Below the pieces are notes generated by a model. It did no database searches. It saw only the letters and a program-made list of their open reading frames with translations, and had not been told where the DNA came from. This document shows positions 27,733 to 35,116 of a DNA stretch of 37,753 nucleotides, one piece after another. Within the stretch, counting starts at the first letter, position 1; each line of letters begins with the position of its first letter. Position numbers and translations under genes: made by a program. The DNA comes from Lachnospiraceae bacterium (GTDB lineage Bacteria > Bacillota > Clostridia > Lachnospirales > Lachnospiraceae): positions 1-37,753 of the forward strand of contig JAJPXU010000006.1 in assembly GCA_021205305.1 (NCBI GenBank), in the 5' to 3' direction.

Positions 27733-28593
27733 ATGAAACACGTTTTCGAGATAGGATGCTTAAGTTTAGGCATCCTTTGTCTTTTTTATTATGTGGGAAT
27801 CGTCTCTTATGCAGGGCTCACGACGAGCTTTGCCTGGATCTGGATTCTGGGAGGCGCAGTTTTGATCGCACTTGGCGGAGGGCTGCGCTATCTGGAAAAA
27901 CATCCGGAGCGTTTTCTGCGCTTTGTGACGGACGTGGTGCTGGCGTTATTGTTCTTGGCGCTGGTGATTGTTTTGATCATCGGCAGCCGCGTTTTTTCAG
28001 CCATGCGCACGAATGGTCTCTATACGTTTTCTTCTGCGGCCTCAGAAGAGGGACATGGAAAGTTCTTGCCGCAGCTGGTCTGGTCTGACACGGAAGAGAA
28101 TTTGGACTATTTGATTGTACTGGGTGCGCAGGTACGGGGGACGAAGCCCTCCCGCGCACTGAGAAAGCGGCTGGAACGCGCGGCGGCCTACGCAGAAGAG
28201 CATCCGGATACAATTCTCATTCTTTCCGGCGGGCAGGGCGCGGACGAGGACATCTCGGAGGCAGAGTGCATGTATCGCTATCTGGTTGATGCCGGTATAG
28301 CGGAAGACCGCCTGGTCAAAGAGGAGGACTCAACAAGCACGCAGGAGAATCTGAAGGATTCAGCGGCAATCATCTGTGAAATTGACGAAGCTGCCGCTGT
28401 GTCTGAGGGGGAGATCCGCGTTTCTGTCGGTGTCGTTACGAGTAATTTTCATCTTTACCGGGCGCTTTTATATGCTAAAAAACAGGGCTTTGCGGATGTG
28501 AGCGGACTTTCTGCTGCGTCGGATATCGGAATGCTGCCGCACAACGGTCTGCGGGAAATCTGTGCCATTCTGGTAAATCGTCTGTTTTTATGA
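27733..28593 (+). CDS. YdcF/ElyC-like DUF218 membrane protein
   Basis: A 286-residue protein with three or so hydrophobic N-terminal segments (about 1-30, 33-50, 63-86). A soluble DUF218 domain follows. The domain motifs are clear: LIVLGAQVRGTKPS, LILSGGQGADE, SEAECMYRYLVDAGI, EDSTSTQENL and TSNFHLYRA. Homologues such as SanA and ElyC affect envelope integrity and cell-wall precursor supply. Start at 27733 has AGAGGAA upstream and begins with the first membrane segment. No terminator is obvious directly after it. Confidence 0.9.
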   Translation: MKHVFEIGCLSLGILCLFYYVGIVSYAGLTTSFAWIWILGGAVLIALGGGLRYLEKHPERFLRFVTDVVLALLFLALVIVLIIGSRVFSAMRTNGLYTFSSAASEEGHGKFLPQLVWSDTEENLDYLIVLGAQVRGTKPSRALRKRLERAAAYAEEHPDTILILSGGQGADEDISEAECMYRYLVDAGIAEDRLVKEEDSTSTQENLKDSAAIICEIDEAAAVSEGEIRVSVGVVTSNFHLYRALLYAKKQGFADVSGLSAASDIGMLPHNGLREICAILVNRLFL

Positions 28594-28661
28594 GCTTTTG
28601 TATAGGAAATCATGTACGGAAAAAAAACCAAATTGGCATCGAAAAAATATTTGATATTTTC

Positions 28662-28689
28662 TTGACAAAAGATTTTGGTCTGTTATAAT
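28662..28689 (+). promoter_or_regulatory. Promoter of the fhs riboswitch leader
   Basis: TTGACA (28662-28667), a 16-bp spacer and TATAAT (28684-28689), both perfect. Transcription should start near 28696, immediately before the ZTP aptamer. Confidence 0.9.
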
Positions 28690-28699
28690 GGGCGTTAGT

Positions 28700-28781
28700 G
28701 AGAGGTTTTGATTGCTGACGGACCAGTGGAGCACCACAAGGTAATCAAAATAATAATTTTGTCGACCGTCTGGACAGCATA
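28700..28781 (+). promoter_or_regulatory. ZTP (pfl) riboswitch
   Basis: Stem P1 pairs TTTTGATT (28706-28713) with AATCAAAA (28743-28750). Inside it, GTGG (28726-28729) pairs with CCAC (28734-28737). The segment GACGG (28717-28721) can form the class-defining pseudoknot with CCGTC (28766-28770). The 3' subdomain CCGTCTGGACA is close to the conserved CCGCCTGGGCA of pfl RNAs. Position upstream of fhs is a classic one for this class, which senses ZTP/ZMP, alarm signals of 10-formyl-THF shortage. The conserved 3' end overlaps the terminator stem, the expected layout for a genetic ON switch. Confidence 0.82.
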
Positions 28782-28808
28782 GGAACGATTGTTATGCTGT
28801 CTTTTTTT
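28773..28808 (+). terminator. Intrinsic terminator, expression platform of the ZTP riboswitch
   Basis: GACAGCATA (28773-28781) pairs with TATGCTGTC (28793-28801), followed by seven Ts. Its 5' arm starts inside the conserved GGACA of the aptamer, so ligand binding and terminator formation compete. Confidence 0.92.
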
Positions 28809-28887
28809 ATTCGAAACCTCCGCGGACAATTTTATATTGATACGGGTAATTGCCTGACCCTGCTTTTGTGGGTGTCAGAACAGTTAC

Positions 28888-28986
28888 AGGTAGAGTAGAT
28901 ACGGTACGTTAAGTGTCACATGATGGGAAGGTCTTTGTTGTGAACGAAGGAATGATTCCGCGTTACGGTATCGCTTCCGCTACTGC
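28888..28986 (+). promoter_or_regulatory. THF (tetrahydrofolate) riboswitch
   Basis: The core matches the THF aptamer: GTAGAGTAGAT, then CGTTAAGTGT, GATGGGA, GTGAACGAAG and finally CCGCGTTACGGTATCGC and TTCCGCTAC. Pairings fit the known fold. P1 is GTAG (28890-28893) with CTAC (28980-28983), P2 is GATAC (28898-28902) with GTATC (28968-28972), and P3 is TCACA (28916-28920) with TGTGA (28939-28943). It lies downstream of the ZTP riboswitch terminator in the same leader of fhs, whose enzyme uses THF as substrate. Confidence 0.85.
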
Positions 28987-29101
28987 GTTTGGACGGATGC
29001 TGTGTCAGTTATCTTCGGATATTTCTGGCGACTTATTTCCTGCGCAGTTTTTATGTCTATTTGGGTTTTCTTCCCGATTTTCAGGTCAGAAGCCACTTCA
29101 C

Positions 29102-29155
29102 AGACAGGTCGCGGGGATAGCAGAGCAGATGCTCTGGCTGACGTCTTTCTTATTT
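29102..29155 (+). terminator. Possible second terminator in the fhs leader
   Basis: CAGAGCA (29121-29127) pairs with TGCTCTG (29130-29136). Outside it AGAC and GTC (29102-29110) can pair with GAC and GTCT (29140-29146). The tail TTCTTATTT is U-rich but not pure. It may be the expression platform of the THF riboswitch, about 120 nt downstream of the aptamer. Confidence 0.4.
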
Positions 29156-29290
29156 CAACCGTTGCAAAATGATAGGATCCAAGAATAGATGACCATGTTT
29201 TCGCTCATTTGCGCGTGGTTCTGTTTCAGGCGGGTATTCTATCTTTTGTCGGCAAATCATGATAGGATAAAGGAGAGGAGATTTATAGCT

Positions 29291-30976
29291 ATGGGATTCA
29301 AATCTGACATTGAAATCGCACAGGAAACACCGATGTCCCCGATTACGGAGATTGCGGCGAAGGCAGGAATCGACGAGAAATATCTGGAGCAGTATGGCAA
29401 ATATAAGGCAAAAATTGACTACAATCTGCTTCGTGAGACCGATAAGAAGGACGGCAAACTCGTTCTCGTGACAGCGATCAACCCGACCCCGGCAGGCGAA
29501 GGCAAGACCACAACGACTGTTGGTCTGGCTGACGGACTTCAGAAGCTTGGCAAGAACGTTATGGTAGCGCTGCGTGAGCCGTCTTTAGGACCGGTCTTTG
29601 GTGTAAAGGGCGGAGCTGCCGGCGGCGGATATGCACAGGTTGTTCCGATGGAGGACATTAACCTTCATTTCACAGGTGACTTCCATGCGATTGGCGCCGC
29701 AAACAACCTGCTGGCGGCTATGCTGGATAACCATATTTATCAGGGCAATGCGCTGAACATTGACCCGCGCAAGATCACATGGAGACGCTGCGTGGATATG
29801 AATGACCGTCAGCTTCGTTTTGTAGTAGACGGTCTTGGCGGAAAGACCAATGGTGTGCCGAGAGAGGATGGCTATGATATCACAGTTGCTTCTGAGATCA
29901 TGGCAGTGCTTTGCCTGGCAAGCGATATCACAGACCTGAAAGAGCGTCTTTCCAGAATCATCGTTGGCTATACCTATGGCAAGGTTTCCGAGCAGAAGCC
30001 GGTGACCGCTGGCGATCTTCACGCACAGGGCGCTATGGCAGCTCTTCTGAAGGATGCCCTTAAGCCGAACCTGGTACAGACTCTGGAGCATGTACCGGCC
30101 ATCGTTCACGGCGGACCGTTCGCAAACATCGCGCATGGCTGCAACTCTGTAACAGCTACCAAGATTGCTCTGAAGCTCGCGGATTACACGATCACTGAGG
30201 CTGGTTTCGGTGCTGACCTTGGCGCTGAGAAGTTCCTTGACATCAAGTGCCGTATGGCTGGCCTGCATCCGAACGCGGTGGTTATCGTAGCGACCGTTCG
30301 TGCTCTGAAGTACAACGGCGGCGTTCCGAAGGCTGATCTGAACCAGGAGAATCTGGAAGCTCTGGAGAAGGGTCTTCCGAACCTGCTTAAGCATGTCAGC
30401 AACATCAAGAATGTATACAAGCTTCCGTGTGTGGTTGCGATCAATGCGTTCCCGACCGATACAAAGGCGGAGCTGGATCTTGTTGAGAACAAGTGCCGTG
30501 AACTGGGCGTAAACGTTGCTCTGTCTGAAGTATGGGCAAAGGGCGGCGAAGGCGGCATCAAGCTGGCTGAGGAAGTAATCCGTCTGGTAGAAGAGCCGAA
30601 TGACTTCTCCTTCAGCTATGAGCTGGAAGGCAGCATCGAGGATAAGCTGAACACCATCGTTCAGAGAATTTACGGCGGCAAGGGCGTTGTCCTGACTGCA
30701 GAAGCGAAGAAGCAGGCGAAGCAGCTCGAGGATATGGGCTATGGCAATTGCCCGATCTGCGTAGCGAAGACACAGTATTCCCTGACCGACGATCCGACCA
30801 AGCTTGGCGCACCGACCGATTTCGAGGTTACCGTTCGGAACCTGAAGATTTCCGCAGGCGCAGGCTTCATCGTAGCCCTGACTGGCGACATCATGACCAT
30901 GCCTGGTCTGCCGAAGGTACCGGCTGCAGAGCGTATCGATGTAGACGAGACAGGAAAGATTTCCGGACTGTTCTGA
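29291..30976 (+). CDS. fhs: Formate-tetrahydrofolate ligase (10-formyl-THF synthetase)
   Basis: A 561-residue enzyme that makes 10-formyl-THF from THF, formate and ATP, feeding purine synthesis and one-carbon metabolism. Diagnostic sequence includes the ATP-binding segment [14 protein letters not shown], the stretch [20 protein letters not shown] and [15 protein letters not shown]. Start at 29291 has AGGAGAGGAG upstream, and the N-terminus [15 protein letters not shown] is typical. An in-frame ATG at 29189 lies in leader RNA and is not supported. Codon use is noticeably more biased than in neighbouring genes, suggesting high expression. Control by the ZTP and THF riboswitches is inferred from the leader. 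Confidence 0.97.
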
Positions 30977-34333: not shown

Positions 34334-35116
34334 ATGAGATTTCGACCATGCATTGACATACATAACGGAAAAGTAAAACAGATCATAGGCGGCAGCCTGC
34401 GTGATCAGGGAGATAAGGCTAGTGAGAACTTTGTCTCCGGACAGGATGCAGACTATTACGCGAACCTTTATCAAAAAGACGGGCTAAAGGGCGGACATGT
34501 AATTTTGCTCAATCCAGTCACCTCTCCCTACTATGAGGCCACGCGAAAACAGGCACTGCGTGCACTTGCGGCCTATCCGGGCGGACTGCAGCTTGGCGGC
34601 GGCGTCACTGCCGAAAATGCGGCCACATTTCTGGATGCCGGTGCGTCGCACGTGATCGTAACCTCCTATGTCTTTCGGGACGGCCGCATTCAATATGAAA
34701 ACCTGGAGCGCCTCGTCGGCGAGATCGGAAAAGAGCATCTGGTACTGGATCTGAGCTGCCGCAAAAAAGAAGGAGAATATGATATCGTGACCGACCGCTG
34801 GCAGAAATTCACGGACGTTCCACTGAATCGGCAAACGCTCGATGAACTGGCGGGATATTGTGATGAGTTCCTGGTGCATGCGGCGGATGTAGAAGGAAAA
34901 TCCGCCGGGATTGAGCTACCGGTGGCGGAACTGCTCGGAAACTGGGGAAAACGGCCTGTTACCTATGCGGGTGGCGTCGGCAGCTACGAGGATCTGAGCT
35001 TACTGCGTGAAGCGGGCAAAAACCAGGTGGACGTGACAGTTGGAAGCGCCCTTGATCTGTTTGGCGGGTCGCTTTCTTATCGGAAAATTCTGGAAATCTG
35101 TAATAAGTTATTGTAA
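34334..35116 (+). CDS. hisA: Eukaryotic-type HisA (phosphoribosylformimino-AICAR-phosphate isomerase)
   Basis: A 260-residue TIM-barrel isomerase of histidine biosynthesis that opens the ribose of ProFAR to PRFAR. It resembles yeast His6 rather than ordinary bacterial HisA. Diagnostic segments are CIDIHNGKVKQIIGG, DADYYANLYQKDGLKGGHVI, LQLGGGVTAENA, VLDLSCRKKEG, EFLVHAADVEGKSAGI, VTYAGGVGSYEDL and VGSALDLFGG. No other his genes flank it; it stands alone between a decayed HTH/RhuM cluster and hpf. The ribosome binding site is poor (AAAGGA about 14 bp upstream). Confidence 0.9.
   Translation: MRFRPCIDIHNGKVKQIIGGSLRDQGDKASENFVSGQDADYYANLYQKDGLKGGHVILLNPVTSPYYEATRKQALRALAAYPGGLQLGGGVTAENAATFLDAGASHVIVTSYVFRDGRIQYENLERLVGEIGKEHLVLDLSCRKKEGEYDIVTDRWQKFTDVPLNRQTLDELAGYCDEFLVHAADVEGKSAGIELPVAELLGNWGKRPVTYAGGVGSYEDLSLLREAGKNQVDVTVGSALDLFGGSLSYRKILEICNKLL

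Follow-up and report, generated by a model that had tools for sequence, protein, structure and literature searches.

The window analysed here, a stretch of 37,753 nucleotides from a Lachnospiraceae bacterium (contig JAJPXU010000006.1), carries on its forward strand a gene for formate–tetrahydrofolate ligase (Fhs), an enzyme that uses tetrahydrofolate (THF) as substrate and gives 10-formyl-THF as product. In the leader of this gene, a single consensus promoter precedes two riboswitch aptamers, each with its own intrinsic terminator. The leader and the gene comprise the following features:

28662..28689, + strand: sigma-70-type promoter, TTGACA-16-TATAAT, 12/12 match to the consensus, with TG before the second hexamer
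28701..28782, + strand: ZTP (pfl) riboswitch aptamer (RF01750, 53.5 bits, cut-off 39, E 4.1e-6); 3′ strand of P3 at 28773-28777
28773..28808, + strand: intrinsic terminator 1, arms 28773-28781 and 28793-28801, U-run 28802-28808 (U7), -14.6 kcal/mol
28889..28984, + strand: THF-I-type aptamer, fhs variant (RF01831, 58.4 bits, cut-off 36, E 8.5e-11); P1 at 28889-28893/28980-28984
28926-28930/28974-28978, + strand: pseudoknot of the THF-I aptamer, part of 28889..28984
28982..29052, + strand: intrinsic terminator 2, base arms ACUGCG 28982-28987 and CGCAGU 29043-29048, U-run 29048-29052, -22.4 kcal/mol
29270..29280, + strand: Shine-Dalgarno sequence AAGGAGAGGAG, read from the sequence
29291..30976, + strand: fhs, formate–tetrahydrofolate ligase, 561 aa (NF010030, 940.8 bits, cut-off 652)

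The aptamers were identified with Rfam covariance models applied at their curated cut-offs (39 bits for RF01750 and 36 bits for RF01831), and no further riboswitch was found in 28590-29320, spacer to fhs included, where no other Rfam match was better than E 2. An earlier note on this DNA had placed a ZTP and a THF aptamer in one leader, behind one strong promoter and ahead of fhs; the promoter, both aptamers at the places it had given, and the identity of the gene all held. Terminator 2, which directly follows P1 of the THF-type aptamer, was absent from that account. All readings given below are computational, and ligand binding and switching are predictions.

Elsewhere in the same genome, a second ZTP switch (C36) precedes genes for IMP-cyclohydrolase-like and AICAR-transformylase proteins, and a weak THF match of 33.6 bits, below the cut-off, precedes a folT-like gene. 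The spacer between terminator 2 and fhs contains a hairpin-rich stretch followed by a pyrimidine run (29105-29165), which by eye recurs in five closely related genomes, G010, G015, G035, G036 and G040. Further downstream in the window, the HisA encoded at 34334-35116 scores 321.9 bits against TIGR02129, a eukaryote-type model with a cut-off of 229.3 bits, and bacterial models remain below theirs.

In the first arm of the leader, the 5′ arm of terminator 1 includes the entire 3′ strand of ZTP P3. A terminator that takes in this strand is the usual ON design of ZTP riboswitches, and the element, which belongs to RF01750 by its score and by this ON-type platform alike, shows no notable difference from members of the family whose terminator competes for the same strand. 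The whole P3 3′ strand is likewise contained in the terminator in 26 of the 27 tandem leaders examined, a set that excludes five tandems found through a variant model; the remaining leader, that of G070, gave no such terminator. Because P3 and the terminator overlap fully, the sequence supports reading the ZTP arm as an ON switch, and the overlapping terminator and the activating role proposed in the earlier note agree with this. In two genomes of the genus, a ZTP aptamer is immediately followed by a Clostridiales-1 RNA (RF01699; L198, 942-1231; L201, 688-975). As matches to RF01699 occur in 43 of the 47 genus genomes, with up to 44 counted in one of them, this RNA behaves like a dispersed repeat, which may interrupt ZTP-type leaders.

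The association of the two aptamers with fhs is recurrent. A ZTP-THF tandem precedes fhs in 31 leaders in total: in 21 of the 47 genomes of the genus, in five leaders outside these genomes (L142, L156, L161, L163 and L164), and in five of eight additional fhs-type leaders that the variant model recovered from 397 genomes of the family, where 28 loci and 8 regions, a subset of all matches, were inspected. The survey of related fhs leaders that the earlier note had called for thus finds the same order in 30 others, more than chance would give, with the reservation that species and leaders are related and the counts are not independent. The hosts with a name include Parablautia sp., Candidatus Choladousia, Candidatus Merdiplasma, Murimonas intestini and Lachnospiraceae MAGs. 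In 13 more genomes of the genus the THF element stands alone before fhs, the stretches searched there having given no match to ZTP at E 1 or better, and one further tandem, in G070, precedes a folT-like gene. Among the matches listed for 398 phylum-wide genomes, searched for both families with stricter filters, no other tandem was seen by eye. A tree of fhs, in which resolution is poor and 2 of 25 inner branches are starred, shows no more than an intermixing of tandem and THF-only leaders (6 changes); one of its rows (L153, a phosphorylase) is wrong. Two genomes, G622 (L226/L253) and G908 (L230/L254), each have two fhs-type leaders with fhs, one of which is a ZTP-THF tandem, while the second has neither a ZTP match nor a U-run after its hairpin; the sequence CCGUCUGG upstream in L253 may be a remnant of a ZTP aptamer.

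The second arm is where the fhs leaders depart from other THF riboswitches. Terminator 2 of the window begins at A28982, three nucleotides inside the 3′ strand of P1 (28980-28984), and ACU at 28982-28984 is common to both structures. This overlap was scanned in 134 THF leaders, picked by score and by hand among the matches, and then in 8 fhs-type and 16 folT-type leaders; it is present in 43 of 50 fhs-type leaders as compared with 4 of 88 folT/folE leaders. In the first set the P1 3′ strand is overlapped in 37/40 leaders of fhs, 2/2 of the same type without fhs, 3/80 of folT, 1/8 of folE and 0/4 others, and in the further leaders in 4/8 of the fhs type and 0/16 of the folT type over the same range of start positions, with one of these 16 starting at -8. 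The seven fhs-type leaders without a scored overlap are G039, L142, L161, L230, L231, L234 and L253. These counts are those of the terminator overlap scan; a search for helices formed by the P1 3′ strand called a U-run in 33 of 41 fhs rows (among them G076b, a non-fhs leader) and left 21 of 80 folT rows without a helix of six. In the folT/folE platform, P1 lies instead beside the Shine-Dalgarno sequence or the terminator is separate.

The three P1 nucleotides are paired within the terminator in 41, 42 and 42 leaders out of 42, compared with 9 to 37 of 42 for the inner pairs +5 to +10, which drift, and the partner of the P1 nucleotides is AGU in 40 of 42, the other two being GGU and GGC. A scan for the P1 junction yielded 42 stretches, two of which (L129 and L131) lack the context of an fhs gene or an aptamer. 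The 3′ arm varies outside the genus (GGU, GGC, AGA), with at least two of three pairs to the P1 bases kept where a terminator was scored, as ACU/GGU in Murimonas (L164) and CU/GG in L137, L228 and L233. The hairpin that comes first after THF in L142 and L161 has no proper U-run, just UUU before CGCG, and a second, strong terminator lies downstream; by eye, GCAGGGUCUCU of the first hairpin is complementary to the 5′ arm of that terminator (AGAGAUUCUGC), and this hairpin pair is possibly a relay that would preserve ON polarity.

Within the genus the overlapping terminators have predicted energies of -13.5 to -33.9 kcal/mol. In 34 of the 35 leaders computed, the energy model places terminator 2 ahead of P1, with a margin of 1.7-4.5 kcal/mol; the row for G029 (+4.2) stems from a misregistered pattern, and G002, G020 and G070 are without a value. 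In transcripts ending before the 3′ arm, the modelled probability of P1 is at most 0.51 in 40 of 40 fhs leaders. When P1 was forced or forbidden at equilibrium, Shine-Dalgarno accessibility did not differ in any of 71 folT/folE leaders, so this energy model is blunt and cannot by itself show polarity.

As terminator 2 and P1 share ACU, ligand binding should block termination, and as terminator 2 beats P1 in the energy model, a ligand that stabilises P1, which could bridge the modelled gap, should permit readthrough. An overlap of this kind is that of ON switches and predicts the logic ZTP AND THF. We therefore lean, somewhat beyond even chances, towards a serial gate of two terminators in which both arms are ON switches, rather than ZTP AND NOT THF. 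In this gate the polymerase would first reach terminator 1, where ZMP and ZTP, which build up when 10-formyl-THF is short, would keep P3 closed, so that terminator 1 is passed. At terminator 2, whose base requires three of the P1 nucleotides, a reduced folate on the THF-type aptamer would keep P1 closed, leave the terminator base beside the U-run incomplete and allow readthrough into fhs. The gene would thus be expressed when the product of the enzyme is short and its folate substrate is present. The aptamers, the terminators, the two overlaps and their conservation are seen in the sequences, and the sign of the THF arm, its retained THF binding and the combined logic are what we infer here. 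The overlap comprises just three nucleotides, and P1 closure leaves a shortened terminator near the U-run that might still function. The two-input gate put forward in the earlier note is supported, as are its two aptamers, each with its own platform before fhs; its expectation that THF turns the gene off finds no support in a leader where the terminator and P1 share ACU, and that sign is probably wrong.

The opposite polarity has been predicted before. The ZTP/THF-I tandem appears in Table 2 of a published survey of tandem riboswitches as a two-input gate with 10 cases upstream of 10-formyl-THF genes and the predicted logic "A AND NOT B", and the text of that survey states that the tandem was noted when both classes were validated (PMC9481103, citing Kim 2015 and Ames 2010). 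The arrangement itself is accordingly not new, which settles a point on which the earlier note had been unsure. Under this logic ZTP would turn the gene on and THF would turn it off: in the unliganded RNA a small hairpin, CGC[UACU]GCG, would occupy the arm of terminator 2, and closure of P1 upon binding would free GCG for a shortened terminator. Among the 12 truncated transcripts inspected, 7 have this hairpin as the dominant structure, which GCG prefers, and the remainder show different weak partners. Hairpins compatible with OFF control also occur in folT and folE leaders of the family: by eye, many folT leaders engage the P1 3′ strand in a hairpin close to the anti-Shine-Dalgarno, and in several folE leaders a hairpin runs from P1 into the 5′ arm of the terminator. 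However, the mini-hairpin has only about 3 to 6 pairs to set against the terminators of the genus, whose energies are given above, and an antiterminator of this kind leaves the conservation of the AGU partner unexplained. OFF control is kept as a rival that we consider improbable and do not prefer over ZTP AND THF.

A second question concerns what the THF-type aptamer binds. The fhs-type aptamers (42 sequences) were aligned with 82 of folT/folE, with G036b and all aptamers above 125 nt excluded; the position numbers are based on a single sequence, and those beyond about 45 are shifted and were not used. U42 is present in 82/82 folT/folE aptamers and is a purine in 50/50 of the fhs type (42 aligned, of which 38 have G and 4 have A, and 8 by eye). 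Position 44 is G in 80/82 of the former and C or U in 40/42 of the latter, position 17 is G in 81/82 and A in 38/42, and position 7 is U in 81/82, with A in 19 and no base in 1 of the 42 fhs-type aptamers. The window aptamer has G28931 at position 42 and retains U7 at 28896. It exceeds the RF01831 cut-off by its score and departs from the family at U42, one of the pterin-contacting uracils U7 and U42, a difference that had gone unnoticed in the earlier note. The fold, with P1 to P4, is kept: of 725 pair cells in 25 fhs-type sequences, 99.4% are paired, with six pairs changed on both sides, and a pseudoknot of five pairs between L3 and J2/1 is present in 25/25. J2/1 reads CUUCC in 42/42 and pairs with GGAAG or GGGAG of L3. 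The likeness to folT/folE members of RF01831 thus lies in fold, core sequence and score, and the difference in U42, G44, G17 and often U7. Since near-invariant positions are changed, the fhs-type aptamer looks like a distinct THF-I-like variant with a rebuilt regulatory ligand site, in which THF binding is at most predicted. A further THF-like variant, the third, has AUUGAAUGGUG in L3 and is seen in L240 (G076) and L238 (G860); the gene that follows it encodes a protein that we take to resemble a trigger-factor-type folding catalyst.

Some of the altered positions contact the ligand. U7, U35 and U42 belong to the regulatory pseudoknot site (PMC11477058; PMC6614920), where they contact folate; the U7C change weakens the response to folinic acid (PMC6614920), and THF in this site affects the stability of P1 (PMC11477058). 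With U42, G44 and U7 altered, the variant may bind THF poorly, which counts against the ZTP AND THF gate. It may have kept the THF-I fold to sense another folate or pterin, or use only the site at the three-way junction, while still acting as an ON switch. The replacement of U42 in all 50 aptamers, with G44, U7 and G17 also altered, favours this view, as does one copy with a terminator (L096, G034:C46) ahead of a formate/nitrite transporter gene (ORF at +277, PF01226, 222 bits), a placement that hints at control of formate assimilation by the variant. Another fhs-type leader (G009, L088) precedes a carbohydrate phosphorylase gene. Against a changed ligand stand the intact core and fold and the scores above the Rfam cut-off, and U35 is variable even in folT/folE aptamers (U in 40/82). 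Moreover, if a one-base insertion in L3 is assumed, a U can be read near position 42 in the genus, which does not hold for L137, L163, L164, L228, L231 to L234 and L254. We give a changed ligand a minor share of the probability. That the THF-type arm is a relic, binding nothing useful beside a ZTP arm that alone regulates and a constitutive terminator 2, fits the altered contact positions and is very improbable, as the spacers diverge widely within the genus, both in sequence and in length, but the aptamer stays near-identical, and the 13 THF-only leaders retain it where ZTP has no match.

The serial ZTP AND THF gate can thus be set beside known systems. The published ZTP/THF-I tandems share with it the classes, their order, the proximity to 10-formyl-THF genes and the ON action of ZTP, and differ in the logic assigned to them (PMC9481103), as the terminator/P1 overlap in the present leaders points to AND. 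Two serial ON switches also make up the AND-gate tandems of ppGpp with T box-Leu and of glycine with c-di-GMP listed in the same survey, which respond to other ligands. The fhsA motif WRC-63-1 is likewise an fhs leader element with a terminator that a fold could prevent in the view of its authors, who speculate that THF or a derivative is its ligand (PMC11109978). By its description it is set apart, occurring in Leptotrichia and environmental DNA and consisting of a pair of hairpins with a possible pseudoknot and no THF-I aptamer. The apparent novelty lies in the second arm, in the overlap of P1 with the terminator together with the fhs-type aptamer variant. No description of an ON-type THF-I riboswitch or of an fhs variant was found in the accessible portions of the open PMC literature, and Kim 2015 and Ames 2010 may contain one.

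Taken together, it is a tentative proposal, put less firmly than the gate alone, that fhs leaders of the Lachnospiraceae contain an unrecognised ON variant of THF-I in which the ligand site at the pseudoknot is rebuilt, perhaps to a new specificity linked to formate assimilation, in a serial AND gate with ZTP. If true, a change of platform would have turned one riboswitch class from OFF to ON, the regulatory site for its ligand having changed as well, and the published logic assignment would be reversed for the fhs cases. The variant would be a candidate for a new ligand specificity, and the leader a natural AND gate made of RNA, with one input signalling that the product of an enzyme is short and the other that its substrate is present.
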